In this document: positions 222 through 23,300 of the stretch, one piece after another | Layout: each line of letters starts with the position of its first letter | Position numbering within the stretch: position 1 is the first letter of the stretch | Source of the DNA: Chromobacterium sphagni | GTDB taxonomy: Bacteria; Pseudomonadota; Gammaproteobacteria; Burkholderiales; Chromobacteriaceae | Direction of reading: 5' to 3' | Assembly (NCBI RefSeq): GCF_001855555.1 | Contig: NZ_MKCT01000036.1 | Coordinates: 1 to 35,795 of the forward strand | DNA length: 35,795 nucleotides | Translations under genes and position numbers: made by a program | The notes under the pieces: generated by a model | What the model was told of the DNA's origin: nothing | Databases searched by the model: none | The model's input: the letters and a program-made list of their open reading frames with translations, nothing else

Positions 222-1609
222 TCACTTTGAGGGTTGGTGGAGGTCGGCGCCGGCCAGCGCGCCGAAACGCTGGTTCAGCCATTGGGCGGTGCCTTGCATG
301 ATGCGTTCTGCGATGTCGGCGACATGGCGGTTTTGCCAGCGCTCGATGGCTGTGCCTTTCACCCACTGGTTGAATGCGCCCAGGGCCGGGCCGCAGTGAA
401 TCTGGTAGTCGGTGAGCTGATCTTCTTCGCCTTGCAGGGCGAGCCGGGTGGAGTGGGCAAAATACCATTTGAAGATCATGGCCATTTTTCGCTTGGGGTT
501 GCGCGCCATCGCCTCGAACTGCTCCGGGTCGAGGCGGGCGTAGTGGCGCCGCGTCTCATCCCAGACCTGGTCGAACGAACGTCGGAAATACTTCTCCTGA
601 ATCTGCTGGCGGGTTTTCGGATCGATTTCTTCCAGAGAGCCGTGGCGCATGTAAAGCTCGTGCAGCTTGTTGGCCGGGACGGGAAGAACAGACCGCGCCG
701 CACCACCTGTATCTTCGCGCCGAGTTCGAACATGTCGCCGGCCGGGGCGTAGGCCGTATCCTGGACATCGATGTGTTGCAGCAGCTCTTTGACCGACTCG
801 CTGGTTCCCGCCTCGCATGTACACTGATTAATCGAGCCGGTTAGGATGAAGTCCGCGCCCAGCATGAAGGCGGCGGCCGCGGCATGGGGCGTGCCTATCC
901 CGCCCGCGGCGCCCATTCTTATCTTGCTGGAATATCGATGCTTCGCCGCCATTTCGTCCCGCAGGGCAAGCATCGCCGGCATCAGCACATAGGCCACCCC
1001 CTGGTCGGTGTGGCCGCCGGAGTCCGCCTCGACGCAAATGTCGTCGGCCATCGGGACCCGATCGGCCAAGCGGGCCTCTTCGGCATCAAGCAGGCCGGAG
1101 GCCGCCAGTTCGCGAACGATATTGTCGGGAGCCGGCTGCATGAAGAGCGCGGCGACTTCGGGGCGGGACACTTTCGCCAGGACATGATTGGGGGCGCGGA
1201 CGATTCCGTCGGCATCGACGGCGATGCCCTTGAGACGGTAGCGAACCAAGGCGGGAGTGATGCGCATATAGGCCGCGGCTTCGACGTGGCGGATGCCGTA
1301 TTCGAGATAGATCTGGACCGTGCGCAGTTCCTGTTCCGGCCGGGCGAGATCGGACAGCAGATTCATGCCATACGGCTGACCTGGGGCCAATTCGCTTTGA
1401 ATAAAACGAATGGATGATTCGATTTCTTCCGGGGACAGGCCGCCGGTGCCAAGGAAGGCCATCAGGCCGGCCTTGCCCATCGCCGTCACCAGCTCTTTCG
1501 AGGCGATGCCCTTATACATCGCGCCGGCCAGATAAGCGTATTTGACCCTGTAGTCGGCCCTGAACTCGGCGCTGCCCAATGTCCCAGCGGCAATCATCCC
1601 CATTCCCAC
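222..1609 (-). pseudogene. PfaD-type trans-acting enoylreductase, interrupted by one apparent frameshift
   Basis: PfaD-family proteins are FMN-dependent TIM-barrel enoylreductases that reduce alpha,beta-unsaturated thioesters in trans on PKS modules. The first part (1609 to about 677, roughly 311 residues) has YLAGAMYKGIAS, EADSGGHTDQG and GAAGGIGTPHAAAAAF, then DMFELGAKIQVVRRGLFFP, all family hallmarks. The second part continues in another frame, from about 675 to the stop at 222, with ANKLHELYMRHGSLEEID and EKYFRRSFDQVWDE. Joined, they give about 460 aa, normal for the family. One base seems to be missing near 672-680: CCCGGCC where CCCGGGCC would restore FFPSRANKL. No other lesion is visible, so a sequencing error is as likely as true inactivation. 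Left uncorrected, the protein would end with about 67 foreign residues (stop at 476). Start choice: GTG 1609, ATG 1603 and ATG 1597 are all in frame; GGGAG at 1613-1609 favours ATG 1603. The gene is divergent from the main PKS operon. Confidence 0.85.
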
Positions 1610-2156: not shown

Positions 2157-2423
2157 ATGCAAGAGAAAATCAGTCAATTCCTGTCGGAGCGCCTGCTGAT
2201 AGAGTTCGGCGGCGATATCGATGCCGACAGCGATCTGTTTCAGCTTGGTCTGATGGATTCCCAGGCTTATATCGAGTTGATCCAGTTTGTCGAAAAAGAG
2301 TTCGGCCTCCGCTTCACCGATGAGGAAGTGCTTTCCAACGTTCTGGTTTCGCTATCGGGGATCGTGTCCCTGGTATCGCAGGCTTTGCAGGACCAGGCAC
2401 GGCGCAGCGCCGTTCCGGAATGA
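2157..2423 (+). CDS. Free-standing acyl carrier protein of the starter-unit set
   Basis: This is an 88-residue carrier protein. The predicted phosphopantetheine serine is Ser35 in LGLMDSQAY, followed by the helical ELIQFVEKEFGLRF typical of ACPs. It differs from the LGANSxDRAE type on the minus strand and has no Trp at +6, so it is not a beta-branch donor or acceptor. Its stop overlaps the start of the acyltransferase gene by four bases (ATGA, 2420-2423), and an amidotransferase gene follows. An ACP next to a discrete AT and an AsnB-like enzyme suggests that it is loaded with malonate, which is amidated while ACP-bound and handed to KS1. That resembles the ACP/amidotransferase pairs of glutarimide polyketide clusters. 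The ribosome-binding site (around CAAGAG) is weak. ACP identity is firm; the starter role is inference. Confidence 0.85.
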   Translation: MQEKISQFLSERLLIEFGGDIDADSDLFQLGLMDSQAYIELIQFVEKEFGLRFTDEEVLSNVLVSLSGIVSLVSQALQDQARRSAVPE

Positions 2424-3316
2424 CGGTTTTCCTGTTTCCCGGACAGGGCGCGCAGGAACCGGCCATGTGCGATGCCGTGCGCCGACATCCGCAATTCCAC
2501 GAGCGCTATCAGACAATCTGCGACCTCGTCCAGACGGATGTCTTGCGCGAACTTGCCGCCGGCCGGGCGGAGATGTTGAACCAGAACCGGTTCAGCTCGC
2601 TGCTGACCGTGTTGGTCGGCACCTTGGCGTTGGAGCTTTTCAAGCAGCACTCGGATGTCGAGCCCGCCGCCTGCGCGGGATACAGCGTGGGGCAGTGGGC
2701 GGCGATGCATGCTGCCGGCATGATCGGTTACGAGGCCATGATAGCCGTCCTGGTCGAGCGGGCCCGCCTGATGGACGAGTACTCCGCAAGCGAACCCGGC
2801 GGCATGTGCGCGGTGATAGGCCTGAAGGAGGCCGAACTGGAGGCGCTGCTGGAGCGGCTGCGTTTGGATGGCTTCCCGGTCTTCATCAGCAATTACAACT
2901 GTCTGGGACAGTATTCCATCGCTGGTACCCTGCCGGCGATCGGGCAGGCGATGGAGAGCATCGCCGCGCTTCGGCCGAAAAAACTGTTGCAGCTGCCGGT
3001 CAGCGGGGCCTGGCACTGTCCCTTGCTCAAAACCGCCGAGTCCGGTTTTGAACGCTATCTGCAAGGCGTCGCGCTCGGCGAGCCGCGAATCCCCGTCATC
3101 GACAACGTCACTGGCGAGAGCCTTCCGGCGGACGGCGACTTGCTGCGCCGAAGCTTGTCCCGCCATCTCAGCCATCCCGTGCAGTGGAGCCGGGGGATCA
3201 AACAGCTGATCGCCGGCGGTTGTACTCAATTCATCGAATTCGGCCACGGCAGCCAACTGAGCAAGTTCGGTTTCTTCATCGACCGGGACGCCGATTTTCG
3301 CGGCTGGCGCGCCTGA
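2420..3316 (+). CDS. Discrete trans-acting (malonyl) acyltransferase
   Basis: This 298-aa protein has the normal length of a FabD-like acyltransferase. It opens with FPGQGAQ (residues 6-12). The nucleophile is Ser89 in GYSVGQ, an unusual form of GHSxGE in which Tyr replaces His and Gln replaces Glu. R114 in VERARLM aligns with the malonate-carboxylate-binding arginine of FabD, and His199 in SGAWHC matches the catalytic His of GAFHS, so malonyl specificity is likely. It is the only AT in the window, and the PKS modules lack one, so it may load all PKS ACPs, the free upstream ACP, or only the latter. The odd nucleophile motif and its place between ACP and amidotransferase leave a starter-dedicated role open. 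The start overlaps the ACP stop (ATGA). About 105 bases separate it from the amidotransferase. Confidence 0.88.
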   Translation: MTVFLFPGQGAQEPAMCDAVRRHPQFHERYQTICDLVQTDVLRELAAGRAEMLNQNRFSSLLTVLVGTLALELFKQHSDVEPAACAGYSVGQWAAMHAAGMIGYEAMIAVLVERARLMDEYSASEPGGMCAVIGLKEAELEALLERLRLDGFPVFISNYNCLGQYSIAGTLPAIGQAMESIAALRPKKLLQLPVSGAWHCPLLKTAESGFERYLQGVALGEPRIPVIDNVTGESLPADGDLLRRSLSRHLSHPVQWSRGIKQLIAGGCTQFIEFGHGSQLSKFGFFIDRDADFRGWRA

Positions 3317-3421
3317 GCCTAGGCGGGCCGACGCGGGCAGTGCCAACCGTGCGGCGAGCAGGCGCAGGATCAGGAGTTTTGTCAGCGGTTCTAAGAAGAC
3401 CCATCTTGGGAGGGAATGCCA
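3317..3421 (+). other. Short intergenic spacer between acyltransferase and amidotransferase
   Basis: This 105-base gap contains the 8-bp palindrome GCCTAGGC (3317-3324) just after the acyltransferase stop and the ribosome-binding site of the next gene. No convincing terminator is seen, so transcription probably reads through. Confidence 0.5.
3408..3413 (+). promoter_or_regulatory. Ribosome-binding site that decides the amidotransferase start
   Basis: GGGAGG at 3408-3413 is only two bases from the ATG at 3416, too close for initiation, but eight bases from the GTG at 3422. The GTG start also places cysteine at codon 2, as class II glutamine amidotransferases require. Both lines favour GTG 3422. 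Confidence 0.7.
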
Positions 3422-5386
3422 GTGTGCGGAATCGCGGGACTGTTTCATGAGGGGCTTCAGACCCAGGAGCGGGTCGATTGTCTGAAGAGCATGCTGGCGC
3501 GGATGCGCCATCGCGGTCCGGACGAGATGGGATACTACTTCGACGATGTGTCGGCCTTGGGCAGCGCTCGCCTGAGCATCGTCGACATCGCCGGCGGGCA
3601 GCAGCCGCTGGGCGATGAAGCCGGGCGCTACTGGATTGCGTTCAATGGCGAGATTTACAACTACAAGGAGCTGAGGGGCGAGCTTGAGGCGCGCGGCCGG
3701 CGTTTTGTCTCCCATTGCGACACGGAAGTGCTGCTGCAGGCCTGGATCGAATGGGGCGCGCAGTCGCTGAAACGGCTGAACGGCGCCTTCGCCTTCTGCA
3801 TATACGACCGGGTGGAGCGCTCCATCGTTCTCGCCCGCGACCGTTTCGGCAAGCGGCCGTTGTATTACCTGAACCAGTCCGGCGCCATCGTATTCGCCTC
3901 GGAATTGAAATGCCTTCTCGCCTATGAACCGTTCCGCTTCGCGTTCGACAGCGAACAGCTGGCCTCGATTTTCCGCATCTGGACGCCGCTGGACGAGCAT
4001 TGCGGCTTCTCGTCGGTACGGCAGGTTCCCGCGGGGGCCTATCTTTATGCGCACGGCCAGGGGGTGGAAACCGTTTGTTACGCGCCGCTGGAACTGGACG
4101 CGGAGCCGCTGGCGCTGGGCGAAGAGGAGGCCGCGGAGCAAGTGCGCGCGGCGCTGTCCGACAGTGTCGGCCTGCGTCTGCGCGGCGATGTCGAAGTCGG
4201 CACCTATCTCAGCGGCGGCATAGACTCGGCGATCATCACCGCGCTGGTCGGCGCACAATCGGCCGGGCCGGTCAAAAGCTTCTCCATACGCTTTGACGAA
4301 GACGAGTTCGACGAGTCGGGGGACCAGCAACTGCTGTCCTCGTTTTTCGGCACCCGGCACACCTCGCTCAGCATTGGCAGTCGGGATATCGTCGATGCGT
4401 TCCCCGACGCGCTATGGCATGCGGAAACGCCGGTTTTCCGGACGGCATTCGTGCCGATGTTCCTGCTGTCGCGGGAAGTGAACCGCCAGGGCATCAAGGT
4501 GGTTCTCACCGGCGAGGGCGCCGATGAGGCCTTTCTCGGCTACGACATTTTCAAGGAAACCTTGCTGCGCGCCGACTGGGGCGGCAAGGACGCCGACGCG
4601 CGCCAAGCCGGCCTGTCCCGCCTGTATCCGTATCTGCGCCAGTTCAACGAGCAGAACCGGGCGTCGATCTCCGCTTTCTTCGACCAGCTGTCGGGCAAGG
4701 AGTCGGAGGACTTCTTCTCGCACCAGCTCCGTTTCCACAACTCCCAGCTCTCCGCCCGCCTGCTGCGGCAAAAGCATGAGGCGCTGAAACCGTTGACGGA
4801 GCTGGTCGCTGCCGCCGGCGGGCGGTTTTCGCGCTTGAGCCAGGTGCAGCGCGCGCAGTGGCTGGAGTACAAGACCCTGCTGGGAGGGTACCTGCTGTCT
4901 ACCCAGGGCGACCGGATGAGCCTGGCCCACAGCGTGGAAAACCGCTGCCCGTTCCTGGATCCGGCCGTCGTCCGCCTCGCCTGCGCGGGCAACTTGAAGT
5001 TCGGCGACCCCTTCGATGAAAAGCATTTGCTCAAGCGGGCCTTCGCCGACCAATTGCCGGCCCGGCTGTTGAGCAAGCCGAAGCAGCCGTATCGCGCGCC
5101 CGACGCCAGCGCCTTTCTGGCGTGCCGACCGGATTATCTGGATGCGATCGGCTCGGAAAGCGAGCTGAAGAAGATAGACGCGCTGGATCCGAAGTTCTGC
5201 CTCGCCTTTGCCGACAAGCTGCTGTCGAAGCCGGTGGAGCGTATCAGCCAAGCCGAGAATCAAACCTTCCTGTTCCTGCTTTCGACGGCCTTGCTGCATC
5301 GCCGCTTTGTCGAGCGGAACGCCCCGGAGCCGTCGGCGATAGACGCGCTGCTGACCAGACGAATCGATGGACGGCTTTACGCATGA
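3422..5386 (+). CDS. AsnB-type glutamine-dependent amidotransferase (asparagine synthetase family), probable malonamyl-ACP forming
   Basis: The protein is 654 aa from GTG 3422, giving Met-Cys-Gly-Ile so that Cys2 becomes the N-terminal nucleophile after Met removal. The glutaminase half has RHRGPD, SIVDIAGGQQPL, NGEIYNY, DTEVLL and RDRFGKRPLYY. The synthetase half has the ATP-pyrophosphatase motif SGGIDS (264-269), TGEGADEAFLGY (from 363) and ENRCPFLD. In the family, ammonia from glutamine is passed to an adenylated carboxylate. AsnB-like enzymes in PKS clusters (OxyD of oxytetracycline; amidotransferases of glutarimide polyketides) amidate malonyl-ACP or malonyl-CoA to malonamyl. Here it follows a free ACP and an AT, and its stop overlaps the start of the first PKS gene (ATGA, 5383-5386), so starter formation is the likely job. 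A later tailoring amidation cannot be excluded. Family certain; substrate inferred. Confidence 0.88.
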   Translation: MCGIAGLFHEGLQTQERVDCLKSMLARMRHRGPDEMGYYFDDVSALGSARLSIVDIAGGQQPLGDEAGRYWIAFNGEIYNYKELRGELEARGRRFVSHCDTEVLLQAWIEWGAQSLKRLNGAFAFCIYDRVERSIVLARDRFGKRPLYYLNQSGAIVFASELKCLLAYEPFRFAFDSEQLASIFRIWTPLDEHCGFSSVRQVPAGAYLYAHGQGVETVCYAPLELDAEPLALGEEEAAEQVRAALSDSVGLRLRGDVEVGTYLSGGIDSAIITALVGAQSAGPVKSFSIRFDEDEFDESGDQQLLSSFFGTRHTSLSIGSRDIVDAFPDALWHAETPVFRTAFVPMFLLSREVNRQGIKVVLTGEGADEAFLGYDIFKETLLRADWGGKDADARQAGLSRLYPYLRQFNEQNRASISAFFDQLSGKESEDFFSHQLRFHNSQLSARLLRQKHEALKPLTELVAAAGGRFSRLSQVQRAQWLEYKTLLGGYLLSTQGDRMSLAHSVENRCPFLDPAVVRLACAGNLKFGDPFDEKHLLKRAFADQLPARLLSKPKQPYRAPDASAFLACRPDYLDAIGSESELKKIDALDPKFCLAFADKLLSKPVERISQAENQTFLFLLSTALLHRRFVERNAPEPSAIDALLTRRIDGRLYA

Positions 5387-8300
5387 AAAGCAAACGACGT
5401 GTCGCGCCGGCGGCGTCCGCTCAGGACGAAATCGCCGTCATCGGCCTAGGCTGCCGGTTTCCTCAGGCTGAAAATCCGCTGGTGTTCTGGGACAATCTGT
5501 TGCAGGGCAAAAGCGCGATCGGCCCGGTGCCCGAGGGGCGCTGGCGCGATCCGGAGCGGGCGCAGCCCTTCCGCGGCGGCTTCATCGCCGAAGCCGACTG
5601 CTTCGACGCGATGTTTTTCAAGATATCACCGAAAGAGGCCGAATTGATGGACCCCCAGCAGCGGATATTGCTGGAGGTTCTCTGGCATACGATGGAAGAT
5701 GCGGGTATCCGGCCGTCCACGCTGGCCGGCCGGAAGGTCGGCGTGTTCATGGGCGTTTGCAATAATGACTACGCCGATCTGCTGAACGAATACGGCCGCT
5801 ACGAAACGGGCCTTTACGGTTCCACCGGCACCTCGGGCTCGATTCTCTCCAACCGGGTTTCATTCGTATACGATTTGCGCGGGCCCAGCGTCACCGTGGA
5901 CACCGCGTGCTCCAGTTCCCTGGTCGCGGTGCATATGGCGGTGAAGGCGCTGCGGGCCGGCGAGTGCGAGGCGGCGCTGGCCGGCGGCGCGAACATCTGC
6001 TGGAGCCAAAGCCGTTTCCTGGCCTTTGGCAGCGCGGGCATGTTGTCGCCGGACGGCGTGTGCCGGACGTTCGACGCCCAGGCGAACGGCTATGTCAGGG
6101 GCGAGGGCGCCGGGGCGGTTCTGCTCAAGCCGCTGAGCCAGGCCATCCGCGACGGAAATCCGGTTTACGGCCTGATCAAGGGCGGGGCGATCAACCATGG
6201 CGGTCGGACCCGGGGCCTTACCGTGACCAGCCCCGAACAGCAGTCCCGCTTGCTGCTCGACGCCTACGGCGATGCCGGCGTGCCGCTGGACACCGTCGGC
6301 TATATCGAGGTGCACGGCACCGGCACGGCGCTGGGCGATCCGATCGAGTTCCTCGGCCTGAAGCAGGCGTTCGCCGCCCAGGCCGCAAGCCGGGCGGAGG
6401 TCGGGCTGCCGGTGAGTCAGGCGGCCGGATATTGCGCCTTGGGCGCGGTGAAAACCAATATCGGCCACCTGGAGGCCGCCGCCGGCATCGCCGGACTGAT
6501 CAAGGTCCTGCTGGCGCTGAAACATCGCAGCTTGCCGGCCAACCTCAATTTCCAGGCGCTCAACTCGCTGATCAAGCTGGACGGCTCGCCGTTTAGCATT
6601 CCCATCGAGACCCGGTCGTGGCCGGCCATGGCGCAGGGGCCGGACTTGCTGCCCAGGCGTGCCGGCGTCAGCGCGTTCGGCTATGGCGGAGCCTATGCCC
6701 ATCTGGTGGTCGAGGAGTGGGAGCCGGCGGCGGAGGAGGCAGTGGCCGAGCCGGACGGCCTGCCGCAACTGATAGTCTTGTCCGCGCCGAATATCGGCAG
6801 ACTGCGGGCACAGGCGGCCTCCCTGGCCGCCTTCTTGTCGCAGGACGGCGGGCGCATGGCCCTGGCCGATCTCGCCTATTCATTGCAGATCGGCCGCGAA
6901 GCGTTTGCCGAGCGGCTGGCCATCGTGGTGTCCGATGTTTCCATCCTGATCGCGCGACTGAATGCGTTCGCTGCCGGCGCCGATCAAGTGGATGACGGTT
7001 TTCGCGGCAAGGCGGCGCGGGAGGCGGCACCCCCGGCCGACTTGGCCGCAGACGCCGCCGGGCCGGCGTGGGCCTTGGTGGCCGAGCGCTGGGTGGCGGG
7101 CGCGGCTATCGATTGGCAGCGGCGGCTCGACGGCCGGCAGCGGCGGCTCAAGGCCTTGCCGCTGTATCCGTTCGAGCGCCGCCGTCATTGGGCGGCTCCC
7201 GCGGAACAGGCTGGACGGCAAGCCTTGTCGCCGGCCGCTGCCGAGCCGGCCAGATCGGGGAAGATCTTCCTGCAGCCGCTCGTTCCGGCGGTAGATGGCG
7301 AGGCCGGGAGAGTCGCCGGCTGCCAGCGCGCGGCGGCCGAGGCGCGGGTGGATGTCGCCAGGGCCGTTGTTCCGGTGTCCGCCGTCTCCGTTGCTGCCGA
7401 TGGCGAGAGGCTGGCCGAATTGGTGCGCGTCTTGACCGGCAGCCTCGCCGAGGCGCTGTATATGGACGTCGGCGAGCTGGAGGCGGACCGGCCATTTTCC
7501 GAGCTTGGCCTGGATTCCATCGTCGGCGTCGAATGGAGCCGCGCGATCAACAAGACGTTCGGCCTCAAGCTGCCGGCTACGCGTCTCTACGACTATCCGT
7601 CGATTCGCCGGCTTGCCGACTATCTGCTGTCGCTGCTGGCCGACGCCGGCGCGGCGGGCGGAGCGACGGCTGAGCCGCCGATGGCGGGCGCTGCCGGTGC
7701 GTCCGCGCCGGACGCCGGCCTGTCGCTGGCCGAGCTGGAGCAGGCGCTGAAGGCCAGCCTCGCCGAGGCGCTGTACATGGACCCCGCCGAGATCGACGCC
7801 GAGCGACCGTTCTCCGAACTGGGTCTGGATTCCATCGTCGGCGTCGAATGGGCCAGGGCGATCAACAAGCGTTACCGGCTGGCGCTGCCGGCCACCCGGC
7901 TGTACGACTATTGCAGCATCCGGCGTCTGGCCGCGCACCTGGCACAGGATTGCGGCGTCAAGCACCCTCAAGCCGCCGCTTCGGCGGCGGGCTCGGGCGC
8001 GGCGCCGGCGGATGGTGACCGCGCGCTGGTGGTGACGACCGTGCATACGCTGGATGAGGTCGAACTGAGCGCATGGCGCGTGCCCGCGCCCGGGCGCGGC
8101 GAGGTCGCCGTGGCGGTGCGGGCGTCGGCCATCAACTTCCCCGACGCCATGTGCGTGCAGGGGCTGTATCCGACCATGCCGGCCTATCCGTTCGTGCCGG
8201 GCTTCGAGGTGGCCGGCGTGGTGTCCCGGCTGGGCGAGGGGGTGGACGGCATCGCGGTCGGCGACGAGGTGATCGCGCTGACCGGCGCCGGCATGGGCGG

Positions 8301-11300
8301 GCATGCCAGCCAGGTGAACGTGCCGGCGGCCAATGTGATCCGCAAGCCGGCGAATCTGAGTTTCGAGGAGGCCTGCAGCCTGCCGGTGGTGTTTCTGACC
8401 GCGCACCACGCCTTCGAGGCGGCCAGGCTGTCCCGCGGCGAGAGCGTGCTGATCCAGACCGCCACCGGCGGATGCGGACTGGCGGCGATACAACTCGCCC
8501 GCCTGCGCGGCGCCGTCGTCAGCGGAACCTCCAGCAAAGAGGACAAGCTGGAGACTCTGCGCCGGCTTGGGCTTGAGCACGTTCTCAACTACCGGACCGC
8601 TTTCGATCGGGAGCTCCGCAAGCGGACGGACGGTCGCGGCGTGGACGTGGTGCTGAACATGCTGTCCGGCGCAGCGATCCAGCAAGGCCTGAATTGCCTG
8701 GCGCCTTGCGGCCGCTATCTGGAGATCGCCGTGCAGGCGCTGCGAACCAGCCAGCCCTTGGACCTGTCCCGGCTGGTGGAGAACCAGTCCTTTCACAGCA
8801 TCGATTTGCGGCGGCTGGCGCTCGAGAACGGGCAGGCTTGGGCCGAGGCGTTCGCGCCGCTGCTGCGTCTGTTCGAGACCAGCCTGCTGCTGCCCGTGGT
8901 CTCCAGAATCTATCCGCTGGCCAAGATCAAGGAGGCGCTGGCTTTCGTCGCTTCCGGCAAGCATATCGGCAAGGTGGTGATCAGCCATGCCGCCGAACAG
9001 GTGATCGATCGCGCCGAGCAGTGCGTCCAGGGCATGCTGGATCAGTGGCGCCGCGCCGCCGAGGCGGCCGGAGCGGCGCTGGCCGCCGGCGGCGCGAAAC
9101 CGGCGTCGGACGATATCGCCATCATCGGCGTGTCGGGGGCCTTCCCCGGCGCCAAGACGCTGGACGAATTCTGGGACATGCTGGCCGGCGGTCGGGACTG
9201 CATATCGGAAGTCCCGGCGCGGCGCTGGGCGATGGCGGGGTGCTACGATCCCCGCCCCGGAACGCCGGGGCGCAGCTACAGCAAATGGATGGGGGTGCTG
9301 GAGGAGGCGGATTGCTTCGATCCGCTGTTTTTCAATATCTCGCCGTTTGAAGCGCAATGGATGGATCCGCAGCAACGGCTGTTCCTCGAACATGGCTGGA
9401 GCTGCATCGAATCCGCCGGCATCGACCCCGACAGCCTGTCCGGCAGCGGCTGCGGAGTGTATGTGGGCTGCGTCCAGGGGGAGTATGGCCGGGCGGGCGG
9501 CCAGGCCGGCCTGACGGCCCAGGGGCTGATGGGCGGTTCCTCATCCATTCTGGCCGCGCGCATCGCCTACCATCTGAATCTGAAAGGGCCGTGTCTGGCG
9601 ATAGACACCGCCTGCTCCAGCTCGCTGGTCGCCATCGCCGAAGCATGCGACAGCCTGACCCTGGGCCGCGTCGATCTGGCGCTGGTCGGCGGCGTCAGCG
9701 TCTTGGCCGGGCCGGAGCTGCATATCATGGCCAGCGACGCCGGCATGCTGTCCAGCGGTGGGCGCTGCTTCACTTTCGACGCCCGGGCCGACGGCTTCGT
9801 GCCCGGCGAGGGTGTCGGCGTGCTGCTGCTCAAGCGCCTGGCGGACGCGCTGCGCGACCGCGACATCTGCCATGGCGTGATCAAGGGCTGGGGCGTCAAC
9901 CAGGACGGCCGCACCAATGGCATCACCGCGCCCAGCGTCAGTTCGCAAGCGGCGTTGCAAAAACAGGTCTATCAGCGTTTCGCCATCGACCCGGCAACGA
10001 TCTCGCTGGTGGAGGCGCACGGCACCGGCACCAAGCTGGGCGACCCGATCGAGGTGGAAGCGCTGACCGAGTCGTTCCGCTCGCATACCGACAGGCGCGG
10101 GTATTGCGCGATGGGTTCGGTGAAAAGCAATATCGGCCATTTGCTGGCCGCCGCCGGCGTGTCCGGCGTCATCAAGACGCTGCTGGCGATGCGGCACCGC
10201 ATGTTGCCCCCGACGATTCATTTTTCAGCGCTCAATCCGCATCTGGCGCTGGACGACAGCCCCTTCTACGTCAACACTGAGCTGTCGCCATGGCCGGCGC
10301 CGGCGGGTCGGCCGCGGCGGGCGGCGGTCAGTTCCTTCGGCTTCAGCGGCACCAACGCCCACCTGGTGCTGGAAGAGGCGCCGCCGCCGCCGCCCTGGCG
10401 CAGCGTGGCCGGCTCGGCGCTGATCGTGCTGTCGGCCAAGACCGGCGAACAGCTGCGGGCCTATGCCGGCCGGCTGGCCGACTGGCTGCGCGCGCAGCCG
10501 GCAGTCGATCTGGCCGCGCTGGCCCACACGCTGCAAAGCGGGCGCGCCGCGCTGCGCCACCGGCTGGCTTTCGTCGGCCATTCGCGCGAACAGATCGCCG
10601 ACGCGCTGGCCGATTTCGCCGCCGGCCGCGAGGTGGCGCAACTGGCGGTCGGCGAGGCGAAGCCGGGCGCCGCGGCGCGGGCGGCCGAGATGGACGCCGA
10701 GCCGCAGCGGCTGGCGCAAGACTGGGTGCGGGGCGCTGTGGCCTGCTGGCCGACGCCGGCCGGCGGCCGGCCGCCCCGGCTGAGTCTGCCGACCTACCCG
10801 TTCGCGCGCGAACGCTACTGGGTCGCGGCGGCGGCGGAGAGCGAAGAGAGCGCATCGAAAGAGCGCGCATCGACGGTTAGCCTGCTGGCGCGCGGCTGGG
10901 AAGCGGCGGCGGCCGGCGCGGCGCGGCGTTTCGGCCAGCGCCGGGTCCTGCTCGACGCCGCTTGCGCCGGGCGGGCGCCGGCGCGGGACGCGGCGGGCCA
11001 GGCGTTGCACTGCGAGACGCTGGCCGACGGCGGGAACGACGCGGCCGAGCGCTTCGGCGCCAGCCTGGAACATGTGTTCCGGCAGGTGCAGGACCTGCTG
11101 CGGTCCGGCCTGGAGGACGGCGCGCTGCTGCAGGTGGTGTTGGCGGACGACGGCGAAGACGGCTGGCTGCGCCAGGGTCTGTCCGGTCTGCTCAACAGCG
11201 CCAGCCTGGAGCATCCGGGCCTGCAGACCCAGCTGATTCGCGTCGATCCGGCGGCGGACGCCGGCGCGCTGGCCGAGGCGCTGCAAGCCGGCGCCGAGCG

Positions 11301-14300
11301 GCCGGCGCAGCGCGAGCTCCGCCATGGTCGCGACGGCTGCCGGGCGGCGACGCTGCGGCCGCTGGCCGCCGTCGGCGAGCCGTCGTTGCCGTGGCGCGAA
11401 GGCGGCGTCTATCTGATCACCGGCGGTCTGGGCGGTCTGGGCCTGCTGTTCGCCCGCGAGATTCTCGCCCAGCTCCAGGACGCCACGGTGATCCTGACCG
11501 GCCGTTCGGCGCTGGACGACGGGCGGCGGCGGCAAGTGGCGGCGCTGGGCGCGCGGGTGGCGTACCAGGCGCTGGACGTCGCCGACGGCGCGGCGGTGCA
11601 AGCCTGCGTGCAGGGCCTGCTGGCGCGGCATGGCCGGCTGAACGGCGTCCTGCACGCCGCCGGCGTGCTGCGGGACGGCTTCCTGCTGAACAAGCGGGTG
11701 GACGATCTGCGCGCGGTGCTGGCGCCCAAGGTGGCCGGTCTGGTCCATCTGGATCGGGCGACCGCGGTGCAGCCGCTGGACTTCTTCGCCGTCTTCTCCT
11801 CGATCGCCGGCGTGTTCGGCAATGTGGGACAAGGGGATTACGCCAGCGCCAACGCCTTCATGGACGCCTATGCCGAACGGCGGGCGGCCCAGGTGGCGGC
11901 TGGGGCGCGGCAAGGCCGCACGGTCTCGCTGTGCTGGCCGCTGTGGGCGGAAGGCGGCATGCGGCTGGACGCGGCCGGAGAAGCGGCACTGGCCGCCGCC
12001 GGGCTGACGCCGCTGGCGACGCGGCCGGGGCTGGACGCCTTCTACCGCGCGCTGGCGCAGCACGAACACGCGCGGCTGGTGGTGCTGAGCGGCGACGGCG
12101 CGCTGAGTCGGCCGGCCGAGCCCGCGCCCGAGCGCCATACCGAGCCGGCGGCGCTGCAGGCGCGGACGCTGCGGCAGTTGAAGAAGCTGTTCGCCGGCGT
12201 GACCCAGGTGGCGGTGGACAGGCTGGACGCCAACGAAGCGCTGGAATGCTACGGCATCGACTCGGTGTTGATCACCCGGCTCAACCGCGAACTGGAGTCG
12301 ATCTTCGGCGGCCTGTCCAAGACCCTGTGGTTCGAATACCGCACGCTGGGCGCGCTGGCGGCCTATCTGAGCGCGCAGCGGCCGGAAGCCTGCCTGCGCT
12401 GGAGCGGCGGCGAGACGGCCGCGCAACCGGCCGCGGGTCCGACGGCGCCGATGCGGCGCGAAGCGATGCCGGCGCCGACACCGACACGGCCGGACGGCGG
12501 CGCGGCGATCGCCATCATCGGCCTGAGCGGGCGCTACCCGCAGGCGCGGACGCTGGAGCAGTATTGGGACAATCTGCAGTCGGGCCGCGACTGCATCAGC
12601 GAAATCCCGGTCGAGCGCTGGGCGCTGGACAGCTTCTACTGCGCCGACCCCGAGCAGGCGGTGGCCAACGGCAAGAGCTACAGCAAATGGGGCGGCTTCG
12701 TCGACGGCTTCGCCGAATTCGACCCGCTGTTCTTCAACATCTCGCCGGCGGAAGCCGAAGGCATGGACCCGCAAGAGCGGTTGTTCCTGCAAAGCTGCTG
12801 GGACGTGCTGGAAGACGCCGGCTACACGCGGGAGCGGCTGGCGCGGGTCCACGACGGCCGGGTCGGCGTGTTCGCCGGCATCACCAAGACCGGTTTCGAC
12901 CTGTACGGTCCCGCGCTGTGGCGGCAGGGGACGGCGGTGTTTCCACACACCTCGTTCAGCTCGGTGGCCAACCGGGTGTCCTACTTCCTCAACCTGAACG
13001 GTCCCAGCCTGCCGATAGACACCATGTGCTCGTCGTCGCTGACGGCGATACACGAAGCGTGCGAGCACCTGAGGCGGGACGAGTGCGAACTGGCCATCGC
13101 CGGCGGGGTCAACCTCTATCTGCACTCCAGCAACTACGTGATGCTGTGCATGGCGCGGATGCTGTCGCGGGACGGGCAGTGCCGCAGCTTCGGCGCCGGC
13201 GGCAACGGTTTCGTGCCCGGCGAAGGCGTCGGCGCGGTGCTGCTGAAGCCGCTGGCGCGGGCCGAGGCGGACGGCGATCGGATCCACGGGGTGATCAAAA
13301 GCAGCGGCATCAACCACGGCGGCAAGACCCACGGCTACACCGTGCCCAACCCGGCGGCGCAGCGCCAGCTGATCGTCGATGCGATCGCCCGGGCCGGCAT
13401 AGACGCGCGGGCGATCAGCTATGTCGAGGCGCACGGCACCGGCACCGAGCTGGGCGACCCGATAGAGGTGGCGGGGCTGAGCCAGGCCTTCCAGGCGCAG
13501 ACGGCGGACACCCAGTTCTGCGCGCTGGGCTCGGTGAAATCCAATATCGGCCACGGCGAAAGCGCGGCGGGGATCGCCGGGCTGACCAAGGTGCTGCTGC
13601 AGATGCGGCACGGCCAGCTGGCGCCCAGCCTGCACGCCGACACGCTGAACCCGCACATCGACTTCGCGGGCAGTCCGTTCTTCGTGCAGCGCGAGCTGCA
13701 GGAGTGGAAGCGTCCGTTGCTGACGGTGGACGGCGTCGAGCGGGAGTATCCGCGAATCGCCGGCATCTCGTCCTTCGGCGCCGGCGGGGCCAACGCGCAT
13801 GTGATCGTCGAGGAATATGTCGACCGCCGGTCGTGGCCGGCGATTGCCGGGCCGGCGGCCATCGTGCTGTCGGCGCGGACCGAGGCGGAGTTGCGGACGC
13901 GGGCGCAGCAGTTGCTGGCGGCGATAGGGGGCTGGGGCGAGGGCGATCTGGCGTCGGTGGCGGCGACGCTGCAGCTGGGTCGGGAGGCGATGGAGCATCG
14001 GCTGGCGCTGCTGGTGGACGGCATCGGCGAGCTGGCGGGCAAGCTGGAAGCGCATCTGCGCGGCGATGCGGAAGTGGAGGGTCGCTGGCAGGGCGAGGTG
14101 AGGCGAGGCAAGGACGGGTTGGCGGTATTCGCCGAGGATGAGGATCTGAGCCTCGCGCTTGAGGCCTGGATGGGCAAGAAGAAGTATGACCGCTTGCTGG
14201 AGCTGTGGGTGAAAGGGCTGGCGCTGGACTGGGGTCGGCTGTATCCGCAAGGTCTGCCGGCGCGGATCTCCTTGCCGGGCTACCCGTTCAAGCGCGAGCG

Positions 14301-17300
14301 CTACTGGGTCGCGGCTGCGGAGACGGCGGCGGTCGAGACGGCGCGGCGGCTGCATCCGCTGGTGCACGAGAACGCCTCCACCGTGTATCGGCAGCGCTTC
14401 AGCAGCGTTTTCGGCGGCGGCGAGTTCTTCCTGACGGACCACGTGGTGCAAGGCCAGCGGGTGCTGCCGGGGGTGGCCTATCTGGAAATGGCGCGCGAGG
14501 CGGCGCGGATGGCGATGCGGCGGGACGACGAGGCCGAGCCGGCGATCGCGCTCAGCCACGTGATGTGGAGCCAGCCCATCGTTCAGGATGAGGCGCCGGC
14601 GCGGGTGCATATCGACCTGTCGGCGCAGGCGGACGGCCAGCTGCGTTTCGAGATTCACAGCGTCGATGGCGCCGGCGCGCGGGTGGTGCATTCGCAGGGT
14701 TATGCGCGGGCGGTGGAAGCGGGGCCGGCACCGAGGCTGGATCTCGCCGGCCTGTTGGCCGGCTGCGACAGCGTGCTGGAGGCGGAGCAGTGCTACGCTG
14801 CCTTCGACGCGATGGACATCCGCTATGGGCCGGGGCACAGGGCGCTGCTGCGAGTGCACGGCGGCGCCGACGCAGGCGGGCGCTACGCGCTGGGCCAGCT
14901 GTCGTTGCCGAGCGCGGCGGCGGCCGACGGCTATGCGCTGAATCCGGGGCTGTTGGACAGCGCGCTGCAGGCGATGATAGGCCTGAACGCCGGCGGCGGC
15001 CTGCTGCTGCCGTTCGCGCTGGAAGGACTGCAGGTGTTCGCCGCCAGTCCGGCGGCGGGCTATGTGCTGGTGCGCGAGGCGGCCGGCGGCGGAGCAGGCG
15101 TGCGCAAGCTGGACCTGGACGTGTGCGACCAGGACGGCGCGGTCTGCGTGAGGCTGCAAGGCTTGAGCAGTCGGGCGCGGCGCGAATCCGGCGTGCAATT
15201 GCTGGCGCGGCGCTGGCGGCGCCGACCGGCGGCGCAGGTCGAGGCGGCGGCGCAGCGCTGGCTGCTGGTGGACGCGGCGTGGGAGGGCGAGCTGGACCGC
15301 GTGCGGGCGGCGTGGCCGGCGGCGCGGATTTCGGTGTTGCGGCGCCGGGGCGACGGCGCGGCGGACGATTACGGCTCGGCGCTGGAGCAAGTGCTGGCGC
15401 TGGTGCAGGCCATGCTGCGCGAGCGCACATCGGAGGCCGCGCTATTGCAAGTGCTGCTGCGGTCGGACGCCGGCGACTGGATGGTGGGGGTGTCGGGGCT
15501 GCTGAAGAGCGCCGGGCGGGAGAATCCGCGACTGTCGGCGCAAGTGATAGAGCTGGAGCCGGGCGGCGACCTGCTGGCGGCGGTGCGGGACAACGCCGGC
15601 GGGGAGGCGGAGCGGGAGATCCGCTATCTGGACGGCGAGCGGCACTGCGGAGCGCTGGAAAAGCTGCCGGCCAGCGGTGGCGGCCCGCTGCCGTGGAAGG
15701 AAGGCGGGGTGTATTGGATCACCGGCGGCGCCGGCGGTCTGGGCTGGATCTTCGCGCGGGAGATCGCGGAGCGGCTGACGCGGGCGACGCTGGTGCTGAG
15801 CGGGCGCTCGGTCTTGAGCGACGAGCGCCGGCGGGAGCTGGCGGCGCTGGGGACGGCGGGGGTGACGGTGGAATACCGTCAACTGGATGTGGCCGACGGC
15901 GCGGCGGTGCGGGAGACGATCGCGGGGGTGCTGGCGGCGCATGGTCGGCTGGACGGGATTCTGCACGCCGCCGGCGTGTTGCGGGACGGTTTCCTGCTGA
16001 ACAAGCGGCAGGAGGATCTGCGCGCGGTGCTGGCGGCCAAGGTGGCCGGCCTGGTGAATCTGGACCAGGCGACGGCGGCGTTGCCGCTGTCGTTCCTGGT
16101 GGCGTTCTCGTCGACGGCGGCGGTGTACGGCAATGTTGGGCAGGGGGATTACGCCGGCGCCAACGGTTTCATGGACGGCTACGCGGTCTGGCGCAATCGC
16201 CTGGTGGAGCAGGGCGAGCGTCGGGGTCACACGCTGTCGATCAACTGGCCGTGGTGGTTGGAGGGCGGGATGCGGGTGGACGAGGCGACGGTGCGGCAGT
16301 GGCGCGATCGCGACGGTCTGGTGCCGCTGGAGACGCCGGCGGGCGTGGCGGCGTTCTACGGCGCGCTGGCCAGCGGGGAGGCCCAGGTTTGCGTGCTGTC
16401 GGGCCTGGCGCCGGTGCCGGCCATGCCGTCTAGGCCGGCGGTGGCGGTGTCGGCAGTGGTGGTCGACGATGCCGGCGCCGAGCTGTGGGCGAAAGCGGCG
16501 CTGTATTTCAGAAAGCTGCTGGCCTCAAGCCTGAAGTTGTCGCTGGACCGGATCGAGATGGATGCTCCGTTCGAAAAATACGGCATCGATTCGGTGCGGG
16601 TGATGCAGCTCACCGCTGAGCTGGAGAAGCATTTCGGCCCCTTGTCCAAGACCTTGTTTTTCGAGCATCAGGACATCGAATCGCTGAGCCGGCATTTCAT
16701 CGCCGCGCATTCCCGGCGGCTGATCGATGTGCTGGGGATGGCGGCGCCGGCGGCGTCCGGCGCGCAGGCGCCCGTCATGCCTCAGCCTGTCCTGCCGTCC
16801 TCTCCTTATCCGATGGCGTCTTTCCATCCGCGGATGATGAGCGCGCCGGTTCAGCGCCGGCACGAGGTCGCCATCATAGGCCTGAGCGGCCGCTATCCGC
16901 AGGCGCCGGACCTGGACGCGTTCTGGGACAATCTGCAGTCCGGCCGAGATTGCGTCGGCGAGATCCCGGCCGAGCGCTGGGACTATCGGCGCTACTTCGA
17001 CGAGCGCAAGGGCACGGCCGGCAAGAGCTATAGCAAATGGGGCGGCTTCCTGGACGGCGTCGACCAGTTCGATCCGCTGTTCTTCAACATCTCGCCGCGG
17101 GACGCGCAGTTCATGGACCCGCAGGAGCGGCTGTTCCTGCAATGCGCCTACCAGACGCTGGAGGACGCCGGCTATACCCGCGAATCGCTGAAGGCCTTGT
17201 CAGGGGAGTGCGGTGTATTCGTCGGCGTGATGTATGAGGAATATCAGTTGTATGGCGCCCAAGCCCAGATGACGGACAGGGCGTACGCGCTGAACGGCAA

Positions 17301-20300
17301 TCCGGCGTCCATCGCCAACCGCGTGTCGCATTTCTTCAGTCTGCATGGCCCCAGCCTGGCGGTGGACACCATGTGCTCATCGTCGCTGACGGCCATCCAT
17401 CTGGCTTGCCATAGCTTGGAGCGGGGCGAGTGCGCTCTGGCCATCGCCGGCGGCGTCAATGTTTCCGTCCATCCCAACAAGTATCTGGTCCTGAGCCAGG
17501 GGCAGTTCGTCTCCAGCAAGGGGCGTTGCGCCAGCTTCGGCGCCGGCGGCGACGGCTATGTGCCCGGCGAAGGCGTCGGCGCGGTGCTGCTGAAGCCGCT
17601 GGCGCGGGCCGAGGCGGACGGCGATCGGATCCACGGGGTGATCAAAAGCAGCGGCATCAACCACGGCGGCAAGACCCACGGCTACACCGTGCCCAACCCG
17701 GCGGCGCAGCGCCAGCTGATCGTCGATGCGATCGCCCGGGCCGGCATAGACGCGCGGGCGATCAGCTATGTCGAGGCGCACGGCACCGGCACCGAGCTGG
17801 GCGACCCGATAGAGGTGGCGGGGCTGAGCCAGGCCTTCCAGGCGCAGACGGCGGACACCCAGTTCTGCGCGCTGGGCTCGGTGAAATCCAATATCGGCCA
17901 CGGCGAAAGCGCGGCGGGGATCGCCGGGCTGACCAAGGTGCTGCTGCAGATGCGGCACGGCCAGTTGGCGCCCAGCCTGCATGCCGACACGCTGAACCCG
18001 CACATCGACTTCGCGGGCAGTCCGTTCTTCGTGCAGCGCGAGCTGCAGGAGTGGAAGCGTCCGTTGCTGACGGTGGACGGCGTCGAGCGGGAGTATCCGC
18101 GAATCGCCGGCATCTCGTCCTTCGGCGCCGGCGGGGCCAACGCGCATGTGATCGTCGAGGAATATGTCGACCGCCGGTCGTGGCCGGCGATTGCCGGGCC
18201 GGCGGCCATCGTGCTGTCGGCGCGGACCGAGGCGGAGTTGCGGACGCGGGCGCAGCAGTTGCTGGCGGCGATAGGGGGCTGGGGCGAGGGCGATCTGGCG
18301 TCGGTGGCGGCGACGCTGCAGCTGGGTCGGGAGGCGATGGAGCATCGGCTGGCGCTGCTGGTGGACGGCATCGGCGAGCTGGCGGGCAAGCTGGAAGCGC
18401 ATCTGCGCGGCGATGCGGAAGTGGAGGGTCGCTGGCAGGGCGAGGTGAGGCGAGGCAAGGACGGGTTGGCGGTATTCGCCGAGGATGAGGATCTGAGCCT
18501 CGCGCTTGAGGCCTGGATGGGCAAGAAGAAGTATGACCGCTTGCTGGAGCTGTGGGTGAAAGGGCTGGCGCTGGACTGGGGTCGGCTGTATCCGCAAGGT
18601 CTGCCGGCGCGGATCTCCTTGCCGGGCTACCCGTTCAAGCGCGAGCGCTACTGGGTCGCGGCTGCGGAGACGGCGGCGGTCGAGACGGCGCGGCGGCTGC
18701 ATCCGCTGGTGCACGAGAACGCCTCCACCGTGTATCGGCAGCGCTTCAGCAGCGTTTTCGGCGGCGGCGAGTTCTTCCTGACGGACCACGTGGTGCAAGG
18801 CCAGCGGGTGCTGCCGGGGGTGGCCTATCTGGAAATGGCGCGCGAGGCGGCGCGGATGGCGATGCGGCGGGACGACGAGGCCGAGCCGGCGATCGCGCTC
18901 AGCCACGTGATGTGGAGCCAGCCCATCGTTCAGGATGAGGCGCCGGCGCGGGTGCATATCGACCTGTCGGCGCAGGCGGACGGCCAGCTGCGTTTCGAGA
19001 TTCACAGCGTCGATGGCGCCGGCGCGCGGGTGGTGCATTCGCAGGGTTATGCGCGGGCGGTGGAAGCGGGGCCGGCACCGAGGCTGGATCTCGCCGGCCT
19101 GTTGGCCGGCTGCGACAGCGTGCTGGAGGCGGAGCAGTGCTACGCTGCCTTCGACGCGATGGACATCCGCTATGGGCCGGGGCACAGGGCGCTGCTGCGA
19201 GTGCACGGCGGCGCCGACGCAGGCGGGCGCTACGCGCTGGGCCAGCTGTCGTTGCCGAGCGCGGCGGCGGCCGACGGCTATGCGCTGAATCCGGGGCTGT
19301 TGGACAGCGCGCTGCAGGCGATGATAGGCCTGAACGCCGGCGGCGGCCTGCTGCTGCCGTTCGCGCTGGAAGGACTGCAGGTGTTCGCCGCCAGTCCGGC
19401 GGCGGGCTATGTGCTGGTGCGCGAGGCGGCCGGCGGCGGAGCAGGCGTGCGCAAGCTGGACCTGGACGTGTGCGACCAGGACGGCGCGGTCTGCGTGAGG
19501 CTGCAAGGCTTGAGCAGTCGGGCGCGGCGCGAATCCGGCGTGCAATTGCTGGCGCGGCGCTGGCGGCGCCGACCGGCGGCGCAGGTCGAGGCGGCGGCGC
19601 AGCGCTGGCTGCTGGTGGACGCGGCGTGGGAGGGCGAGCTGGACCGCGTGCGGGCGGCGTGGCCGGCGGCGCGGATTTCGGTGTTGCGGCGCCGGGGCGA
19701 CGGCGCGGCGGACGATTACGGCTCGGCGCTGGAGCAAGTGCTGGCGCTGGTGCAGGCCATGCTGCGCGAGCGCACATCGGAGGCCGCGCTATTGCAAGTG
19801 CTGCTGCGGTCGGACGCCGGCGACTGGATGGTGGGGGTGTCGGGGCTGCTGAAGAGCGCCGGGCGGGAGAATCCGCGACTGTCGGCGCAAGTGATAGAGC
19901 TGGAGCCGGGCGGCGACCTGCTGGCGGCGGTGCGGGACAACGCCGGCGGGGAGGCGGAGCGGGAGATCCGCTATCTGGACGGCGAGCGGCACTGCGGAGC
20001 GCTGGAAAAGCTGCCGGCCAGCGGTGGCGGCCCGCTGCCGTGGAAGGAAGGCGGGGTGTATTGGATCACCGGCGGCGCCGGCGGTCTGGGCTGGATCTTC
20101 GCGCGGGAGATCGCGGAGCGGCTGACGCGGGCGACGCTGGTGCTGAGCGGGCGCTCGGTCTTGAGCGACGAGCGCCGGCGGGAGCTGGCGGCGCTGGGGA
20201 CGGCGGGGGTGACGGTGGAATACCGTCAACTGGATGTGGCCGACGGCGCGGCGGTGCGGGAGACGATCGCGGGGGTGCTGGCGGCGCATGGTCGGCTGGA

Positions 20301-23300
20301 CGGGATTCTGCACGCCGCCGGCGTGTTGCGGGACGGTTTCCTGCTGAACAAGCGGCAGGAGGATCTGCGCGCGGTGCTGGCGGCCAAGGTGGCCGGCCTG
20401 GTGAATCTGGACCAGGCGACGGCGGCGTTGCCGCTGTCGTTCCTGGTGGCGTTCTCGTCGACGGCGGCGGTGTACGGCAATGTTGGGCAGGGGGATTACG
20501 CCGGCGCCAACGGTTTCATGGACGGCTACGCGGTCTGGCGCAATCGCCTGGTGGAGCAGGGCGAGCGTCGGGGTCACACGCTGTCGATCAACTGGCCGTG
20601 GTGGTTGGAGGGCGGGATGCGGGTGGACGAGGCGACGGTGCGGCAGTGGCGCGATCGCGACGGTCTGGTGCCGCTGGAGACGCCGGCGGGCGTGGCGGCG
20701 TTCTACGGCGCGCTGGCCAGCGGGGAGGCCCAGGTTTGCGTGCTGTCGGGCCTGGCGCCGGTGCCGGCCATGCCGTCTAGGCCGGCGGTGGCGGTGTCGG
20801 CAGTGGTGGTCGACGATGCCGGCGCCGAGCTGTGGGCGAAAGCGGCGCTGTATTTCAGAAAGCTGCTGGCCTCAAGCCTGAAGTTGTCGCTGGACCGGAT
20901 CGAGATGGATGCTCCGTTCGAAAAATACGGCATCGATTCGGTGCGGGTGATGCAGCTCACCGCTGAGCTGGAGAAGCATTTCGGCCCCTTGTCCAAGACC
21001 TTGTTTTTCGAGCATCAGGACATCGAATCGCTGAGCCGGCATTTCATCGCCGCGCATTCCCGGCGGCTGATCGATGTGCTGGGGATGGCGGCGCCGGCGG
21101 CGTCCGGCGCGCAGGCGCCCGTCATGCCTCAGCCTGTCCTGCCGTCCTCTCCTTATCCGATGGCGTCTTTCCATCCGCGGATGATGAGCGCGCCGGTTCA
21201 GCGCCGGCACGAGGTCGCCATCATAGGCCTGAGCGGCCGCTATCCGCAGGCGCCGGACCTGGACGCGTTCTGGGACAATCTGCAGTCCGGCCGAGATTGC
21301 GTCGGCGAGATCCCGGCCGAGCGCTGGGACTATCGGCGCTACTTCGACGAGCGCAAGGGCACGGCCGGCAAGAGCTATAGCAAATGGGGCGGCTTCCTGG
21401 ACGGCGTCGACCAGTTCGATCCGCTGTTCTTCAACATCTCGCCGCGGGACGCGCAGTTCATGGACCCGCAGGAGCGGCTGTTCCTGCAATGCGCCTACCA
21501 GACGCTGGAGGACGCCGGCTATACCCGCGAATCGCTGAAGGCCTTGTCAGGGGAGTGCGGTGTATTCGTCGGCGTGATGTATGAGGAATATCAGTTGTAT
21601 GGCGCCCAAGCCCAGATGACGGACAGGGCGTACGCGCTGAACGGCAATCCGGCGTCCATCGCCAACCGCGTGTCGCATTTCTTCAGTCTGCATGGCCCCA
21701 GCCTGGCGGTGGACACCATGTGCTCATCGTCGCTGACGGCCATCCATCTGGCTTGCCATAGCTTGGAGCGGGGCGAGTGCGCTCTGGCCATCGCCGGCGG
21801 CGTCAATGTTTCCGTCCATCCCAACAAGTATCTGGTCCTGAGCCAGGGGCAGTTCGTCTCCAGCAAGGGGCGTTGCGCCAGCTTCGGCGCCGGCGGCGAC
21901 GGCTATGTGCCCGGCGAAGGCGTCGGCGCGGTGCTGCTGAAGCCGCTGGCGCGGGCCGAGGCGGACGGCGATCGGATCCACGGGGTGATCAAAAGCAGCG
22001 GCATCAACCACGGCGGCAAGACCCACGGCTACACCGTGCCCAACCCGGCGGCGCAGCGCCAGCTGATCGTCGATGCGATCGCCCGGGCCGGCATAGACGC
22101 GCGGGCGATCAGCTATGTCGAGGCGCACGGCACCGGCACCGAGCTGGGCGACCCGATAGAGGTGGCGGGGCTGAGCCAGGCCTTCCAGGCGCAGACGGCG
22201 GACACCCAGTTCTGCGCGCTGGGCTCGGTGAAATCCAATATCGGCCACGGCGAAAGCGCGGCGGGGATCGCCGGGCTGACCAAGGTGCTGCTGCAGATGC
22301 GGCACGGCCAGTTGGCGCCCAGCCTGCATGCCGACACGCTGAACCCGCACATCGACTTCGCGGGCAGTCCGTTCTTCGTGCAGCGCGAGCTGCAGGAGTG
22401 GAAGCGTCCGTTGCTGACGGTGGACGGCGTCGAGCGGGAGTATCCGCGAATCGCCGGCATCTCGTCCTTCGGCGCCGGCGGGGCCAACGCGCATGTGATC
22501 GTCGAGGAATATGTCGACCGCCGGTCGTGGCCGGCGATTGCCGGGCCGGCGGCCATCGTGCTGTCGGCGCGGACCGAGGCGGAGTTGCGGACGCGGGCGC
22601 AGCAGTTGCTGGCGGCGATAGGGGGCTGGGGCGAGGGCGATCTGGCGTCGGTGGCGGCGACGCTGCAGCTGGGTCGGGAGGCGATGGAGCATCGGCTGGC
22701 GCTGCTGGTGGACGGCATCGGCGAGCTGGCGGGCAAGCTGGAAGCGCATCTGCGCGGCGATGCGGAAGTGGAGGGTCGCTGGCAGGGCGAGGTGAGGCGA
22801 GGCAAGGACGGGTTGGCGGTATTCGCCGAGGATGAGGACCTGAGCCTCGCGCTTGAGGCCTGGATGGGCAAGAAGAAGTATGACCGCTTGCTGGAGCTGT
22901 GGGTGAAAGGGCTGGCGCTGGACTGGGGTCGGCTGTATCCGCAGGGTCTGCCGGCGCGGATCTCCTTGCCGGGCTACCCGTTCAAGCGCGAGCGCTACTG
23001 GGTCGCGGCTGCGGAGACGGCGGCGGTCGAGACGGCGCGGCGGCTGCATCCGCTGGTGCACGAGAACGCCTCCACCGTGTATCGGCAGCGCTTCAGCAGC
23101 GTTTTCGGCGGCGGCGAGTTCTTCCTGACGGACCACGTGGTGCAAGGCCAGCGGGTGCTGCCGGGGGTGGCCTATCTGGAAATGGCGCGCGAGGCGGCGC
23201 GGATGGCGATGCGGCGGGACGACGAGGCCGAGCCGGCGATCGCGCTCAGCCACGTGATGTGGAGCCAGCCCATCGTTCAGGATGAGGCGCCGGCGCGGGT

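Follow-up and report, generated by a model that had tools for sequence, protein, structure and literature searches.

The stretch of 35,795 nucleotides analysed here, called the window below, is contig NZ_MKCT01000036.1 of Chromobacterium sphagni (assembly GCF_001855555.1), and it carries a polyketide synthase (PKS) of the trans-acyltransferase type, with modules that lack an acyltransferase (AT) and ATs encoded separately. We propose, at a probability of about 0.6, that it holds the initiation end of an assembly line in which a malonamyl start, a beta-methyl branch made by a hydroxymethylglutaryl synthase (HMGS) cassette and a reduction in cis would lead to a 3-methylglutaramyl chain. This proposal is built on the genes present and their order, on sequence motifs, on phylogeny and on the cassette genes found elsewhere in the genome.

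In the proposed route, the stand-alone AT would load malonyl onto a free acyl carrier protein (ACP), and an AsnB-type amidotransferase (AMT), with glutamine and ATP, would turn the distal carboxyl into an amide, giving malonamyl-ACP; the first ketosynthase (KS1) would extend it once, to a 3-oxo-glutaramyl chain on tandem ACPs. The cassette, made of a decarboxylating KS, HMGS, ECH1 and ECH2, would add an acetyl-derived branch at the beta-carbonyl, with dehydration and decarboxylation; the cis enoylreductase (ER) would then reduce the double bond, and KS2 would take 3-methylglutaramyl, H2N-CO-CH2-CH(CH3)-CH2-CO-S-. The amide may be retained in the final product.

The starter set and the first ketosynthase

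An earlier note, made from the letters of the window, had placed a free ACP, an AT and an AsnB-type AMT directly before the PKS, and matches to PF00550, PF00698 and PF00733 plus PF13537, respectively, bear it out. An AT, an ACP and an AsnB-type AMT beside the first PKS are what one expects of a glutarimide line, though the AT comes here from another clade. Start and stop codons overlap in the ACP/AT pair and in the AMT/PKS1 pair, the ATG of PKS1 at 5383 overlapping the AMT stop; among the matches listed, free ACPs adjoin the AMT in many AMT loci.

The AMT exceeds the cut-off of the general asparagine synthase model TIGR01536, as expected for its superfamily, and probably starts at GTG 3422, which would give a Cys at position two. 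AMT loci were compared in a set that kept 80 of the 568 confirmed places in a genome-contig scan, and rows shorter than about 450 residues were left out of the AMT tree. The PKS-linked AMTs, 51 rows in all, group in a single clade (support 1.0); the window AMT branches as sister to the remaining 50 and has 51-52% identity to the three PKS-linked AMTs aligned with it. This clade holds both AT-ACP-AMT-PKS loci (Streptomyces and relatives) and ACP-AMT loci with HMGS nearby (Stappia, Magnetospirillum and others). An osmolyte (NAGGN) or exosortase-type amidotransferase was considered and rejected: the protein is below the cut-offs of TIGR03104 and TIGR03108, and AMT rows of 37-43% identity fall outside the PKS-linked clade. 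None of 60 other relatives gave a match to the AMT at 1e-100, and of 399 genomes from the order two did so at 1e-160, this genome included; a scan of viral contigs returned one distant match (28% identity) and the phage collection none.

KS1 points in the same direction. The KS trees were built without pieces shorter than about 380 residues, and the mixture-model tree used 98 of the 172 KS rows, including 14 of the 40 other AMT-linked KS1s. KS1 is sister to these 40 in the first tree (support 0.999) and in the 172-KS tree (0.957), and to the 14 in the mixture-model tree (SH-aLRT 93, not starred). The assignment of KS1 to a malonamyl clade looks good but not final, and together with the AMT clade it suggests that the starter is probably malonamyl. 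What follows KS1 in the 40 others is, among the matches listed, a dehydratase (DH) in 38 cases, the remaining two being cut off; these 38 break down into 27 with DH-ketoreductase (KR)-ACP, 10 with DH-KR up to the locus edge and one with DH up to the edge. None of the 40 shows ACP-ACP-ER after KS1 among those same matches, a count that is not a census because the locus set kept 80 of 568 places.

The starter AT is one of 11 ATs in a clade marked by GYSVGQW (GYSVGQF in L108, unmatched in L118) and by GAWH or GGWH, and shares 27-33% identity with the ATs beside the Streptomyces-type AMTs. Its Ser, His and FabD-type Arg align with those of E. coli FabD. Because contig C13 of the same genome carries a separate canonical malonyl AT, the window AT is free to serve the starter alone. 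Its clade and its distance from the glutarimide ATs would also suit an AT that loads another dicarboxylate, such as succinyl, in which case the amide starter would be one carbon longer and the remainder would follow the route above. We hold this to be unlikely, as the aligned Arg is presumably the residue that binds the malonyl carboxylate, and the AMT and KS1 both side with malonamyl systems. In favour of the longer starter, EtnB and GdnB, starter ATs of trans-AT lines, are thought to load succinyl, according to the available part of PMC8302727.

Among the other members of the AT clade, L064, from an Algicola metagenome-assembled genome (MAG), has a fused ACP-AT, an AMT and a KS1 of the same lineage, its PKS being cut by a run of N directly after KS1. 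No KS was matched within the flanks examined of the remaining nine (L108, L109, L112-L118). These are AT-AMT pairs, seven of the nine with a nearby ACP match, from Accumulibacter, Obscuribacterales, Melainabacteria and other MAGs; two of three scanned ORFs that bear the ACP in such loci had a weak GNAT match, below the Pfam cut-off. The KS-less loci perhaps serve to transfer malonamyl onto a sugar or a peptide. The simplest reading would be that sets of ACP, AT and AMT also occur apart from PKSs and that one of them has here been joined to a KS.

The branching module, its cassette and the fate of the branch

Module 1 is KS-ACP-ACP-ER with the branching Trp in both ACPs, just as the sequence had first been read, each ACP carrying GLDSIVGVEW. 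The acceptor motif of beta-branching ACPs is given as GXDSX5W in the accessible part of PMC11425284, and two ACP pairs of the window, in modules 1 and 6, have it. With a first pattern, 18 ACP serine motifs were found in the window and contigs C97 and C87, of which four, all in the window, have the motif Trp; a wider scan of ORFs of at least 200 aa in six contigs (the window, the first 20 kb of C13, C87, C97, C101 and C73) returned the same four and a fifth match, which has no ACP context, in an ORF on the minus strand of C13. The best PDB match of the module 1 pair is the mupirocin ACP didomain (2l22, 1.3e-27), which we take to be a beta-branching didomain, followed by the CurA ACP (2liu). In module 1 neither a DH nor a KR was matched, and the ER would therefore have nothing to reduce unless a double bond came from the cassette. 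This argues against the idea that branching is unused here, with tandem Trp ACPs or an ER that are vestigial and a start that is unbranched, or with an ER that acts elsewhere; the DS and W are, besides, kept in both ACPs, and we regard such disuse as very unlikely.

HMGS, ECH1 and ECH2, which the earlier note proposed to look for, are present in the genome, on C13 (L035). DNA to the left of base 1 cannot be read for such genes because the window spans the entire contig (C36), one of the 104 that make up the 4.74 Mb genome, and what precedes it lies outside the assembly. A PF08540 search of the genome found one HMGS, on C13 (1.7e-195 to PksG), followed by ECH1 (PksH-like, 3.7e-98) and ECH2 (PksI-like, 6.3e-101). 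This cassette very probably serves the window PKS, as the window is where the Trp-flagged ACPs were found. Beyond it, C13 encodes a NACHT protein, a DUF4180 protein, an amidase, the canonical malonyl AT (above the TIGR00128 cut-off; GHSLGEY...GAFH), a phosphopantetheinyl transferase and a second AT-like protein. ECH2 is of the PksI type (a decarboxylase), with a conserved FHHEEVK end, and because the cassette includes it, the branch should normally end as a methyl; ECH2 and the cis ER together would give a saturated beta-methyl, and KS2 would thus receive 3-methylglutaramyl.

A further question is whether module 1 hides a branching (B) domain of the kind found in glutarimide lines. From glutarimide-type loci we took 26 regions that separate the second KS from the third and built a profile of them. 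With filters off, the gap between KS1 and the first ACP scored -0.6 bits, whereas the 26 regions, each scored when left out of the profile, reached 171-431 bits, and the B-domain check proposed in the earlier note thus came out negative; with filters on, no ORF matched across the six contigs listed above. Ordinary DH-bearing sequences stayed far below the B regions, with 27 bits for the window DHs (filters off) and 19-54 bits for reference PKS ORFs. KS2, the acceptor of the module 1 product, was likewise tried and rejected as a glutarimide-type KS3, the KS that follows a B module: grouping it with seven such KS3s costs 97 log units (p-AU 0.0025). It falls within a set of 14 KSs (support 0.885 in the 172-KS tree, SH-aLRT 91 in the 98-KS mixture-model tree). 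Among the members of that set are C97_11019, located after an ER, and two KSs of the window, KS8 after a KR-methyltransferase (MT) module and KS7 after the other Trp-flagged ACP pair.

These two results bear on a route that would bypass ECH2: the carboxymethyl would be retained, reduced and activated, and amide and acid would close to a 3-substituted glutarimide with no B domain involved. The carbon skeleton fits, and the AMT and KS1 do side with glutarimide lines in the trees; if true, beta-branching would give the same head group as the vinylogous Michael addition of known lines. However, a PksI-type ECH2 is present, KS2 stands outside the glutarimide KS3s, and the window proteins that were scanned gave no match to an acid-activating enzyme. 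Closure on an amide would require the free carboxymethyl to be activated first. We find this route quite improbable. Very doubtful, too, in view of the same ECH2, is an open chain whose branch acid is retained and free, 3-(carboxymethyl)glutaramyl. Both have a precedent in bongkrekic acid, where, as far as the available part of PMC12560621 goes, the carboxymethyl is kept at module 11 although the cassette has an ECH2, active there in vitro and not natively. Module 11 is the last one there, however, whereas the branch at module 1, the short-chain case, is decarboxylated to a methyl (PMC12560621).

As for the HMGS reading first put forward for the window, its amide starter set, its beta-branching module with a cis ER and no B domain, and its cassette in the genome all found support, and its preferred outcome, a glutarimide head group, did not; the 3-methylglutaramyl start that it had kept as a fallback is, given the PksI-type ECH2, the better-supported outcome.

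A number of points nevertheless weigh against the 3-methylglutaramyl route. The line is known from its genes, and every chemical step is predicted from them; the starter AT is not of the glutarimide type, and the acyl group that it would load is a prediction as well. KS1 sits on a long branch (0.99), a tree that instead places it with the starter-side KSs G622, G455 and G537 is not rejected (p-AU 0.30), and its top identity in the mixture-tree set, 53%, is to one of these three (L175_9191p). C13 and C36 are separate contigs, presumably from a single cluster; the end of C13 truncates the cassette's KS-like fragment, and no donor ACP was identified. One has also to consider that the starter amide may be removed later, because an amidase gene lies near the cassette; its product is below all the NCBIfam amidase cut-offs listed.

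Layout of the line and its repeated modules

Domain matches give the order KS1-ACP-ACP-ER, KS2-KR-ACP, KS3-DH-KR-ACP, KS4-DH-KR-ACP, KS5-DH-KR // ACP for the first part of the line, and KS6-ACP-ACP, KS7-KR // MT-ACP, KS8-KR up to the contig end for the second (breaks marked //). Coordinates are collected in Table 1.

Table 1. Features of the window and of contig C13 discussed in the text.
Feature	Position	Strand	Remarks
PfaD-type trans enoylreductase gene	222..1609	-	split across two overlapping frames; TIGR02814
Free (starter) ACP	2157..2423	+	PF00550, 28.5 bits
Starter AT, probably dedicated, GYSVGQW / GAWH type	2420..3316	+	PF00698; 11-AT clade, support 1.0
AsnB-type AMT	3422..5386	+	PF00733, 254.5 bits; GATase_7 (PF13537), 151.3 bits; listed ORF from ATG 3416
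PKS1	5383..25221	+	KS1-ACP-ACP-ER / KS2-KR-ACP / 3x KS-DH-KR; ACP of last module on PKS2; start ATG 5383
KS1 (TACSSS), probably malonamyl-accepting	5413..6780	+	sister to AMT-linked KS1s
ACP1a, beta-branching Trp (GLDSIVGVEW)	7417..7641	+	motif scans, PDB match
ACP1b, beta-branching Trp (GLDSIVGVEW)	7732..7941	+	motif scans, PDB match
Cis ER of module 1	8062..8991	+	PF08240/PF00107/PF13602; best PDB match JamJ 5doz, 1.9e-46
KS2, acceptor of module 1 product	9100..10374	+	not of glutarimide KS3 type
Second tandem Trp-flagged ACP pair, module 6	27807..28307	+	no KR, DH or ER matched there
Amidase gene	C13 (L035) 7169-8569		PF01425; between HMGS cassette and malonyl AT

The two pieces of the PfaD-type gene, searched apart against TIGR02814, scored 478 bits (positions 3-309) and 194 bits (303-444), and the split is either a genuine break or a sequencing error. 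Positions 13021-25108 hold three tandem KS-DH-KR modules with a period of 4347 bases, successive copies being identical at 3208 and 3210 of 3214 compared bases, an identity that starts near the KS active-site Cys motif; this array either reflects a triplication in the recent past or was produced by the assembly. The module 2-3 region occurs again on C97 (L037), where positions 11655-16418 match 9745-14502 of the window (96% identity, 4777 bases), and the KS at C97 14403 groups with KS3 of the window at zero distance in the KS trees. C87 (L036) has near-identical repeats at 1-2466 and 7957-10423 (99.8% within C87), which match C101 (L039) at 99.5-99.6%, and a KR and KSs are read in broken frames. 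One end of C101 matches inside C36 and inside C97 over 146 bases, and in an end-overlap test (left end only for C13) neither end of C36 had a match in the other contigs tested.

Comparison with known systems

In the trans-AT literature searched, and in the parts of it available, malonamyl initiation is tied to lines that proceed to glutarimide; AMT initiation and a beta-branching ER module were not found together in the open-access literature searched, which lacks most subscription papers. The parts are known; what is new is the joining of glutarimide-type initiation, HMGS branching and cis reduction, a combination absent from the other loci read. Here a comparable starter set, whose AMT and KS1 come out as sisters of the others in the trees, stands before a different first module, and the amide starter would then be a portable unit, usable ahead of other chemistry. 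An exchange of the starter AT between lineages, with AMT and KS1 kept, would be suggested, and, in genome mining, an AMT match without a B domain would be a class of false positives for glutarimide.

Of the systems resembling parts of the window, the curacin and jamaicamide lines share enzymes with it, the ER of module 1 being nearest to JamJ in the PDB and the HMGS of C13 close to CurD and PksG. These lines are cis-AT and cyanobacterial, and they are not known to have an amide starter.

The glutarimide lines (9-methylstreptimidone, cycloheximide, lactimidomycin, migrastatin, gladiostatin/gladiofungin) share the AT, ACP and AMT set, the AMT clade and, probably, a sister KS1; for these lines, the AT, the ACP and the asparagine-synthetase-type AMT have been proposed to make malonamyl-ACP, in the available parts of PMC7756379, PMC10574677 and PMC7756420. 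They differ in the first block, KS-DH-KR-ACP-KS-B-ACP as given in PMC10574677, whereas the window has KS-ACP-ACP-ER and no B domain. The glutarimide-type loci of Streptomyces also have the order AT-ACP-AMT where the window has ACP-AT-AMT, with an AT of another clade.

Sesbanimide-type clusters (Magnetospirillum and relatives) unite an ACP and AMT starter with a beta-branching cassette in one cluster; their cassette, however, makes an exomethylene at module 5, as described in the accessible part of PMC8262917, and DH-KR follows KS1 in all of the 10 loci that have KS1 on the strand opposite to the AMT. Bongkrekic acid offers one cassette for two modules, module 1 included, and tandem ACPs, but its first branch remains unsaturated and the available part of PMC12560621 names no amide starter.

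Aurantinin, lastly, is alike in that the second malonyl carboxyl is masked before extension and that a beta-branching cassette is present in the cluster; its mask is a methyl ester, removed last by the esterase Art9, where the window would use an amide, and its branching is assigned to modules 3 and 4, all according to the accessible part of PMC8302727. By analogy with Art9 and the methyl ester of aurantinin, one may conjecture that the C13 amidase is a final remover of the amide; if the product is its substrate, the amide would act, like that ester, as a mask that can be taken off.

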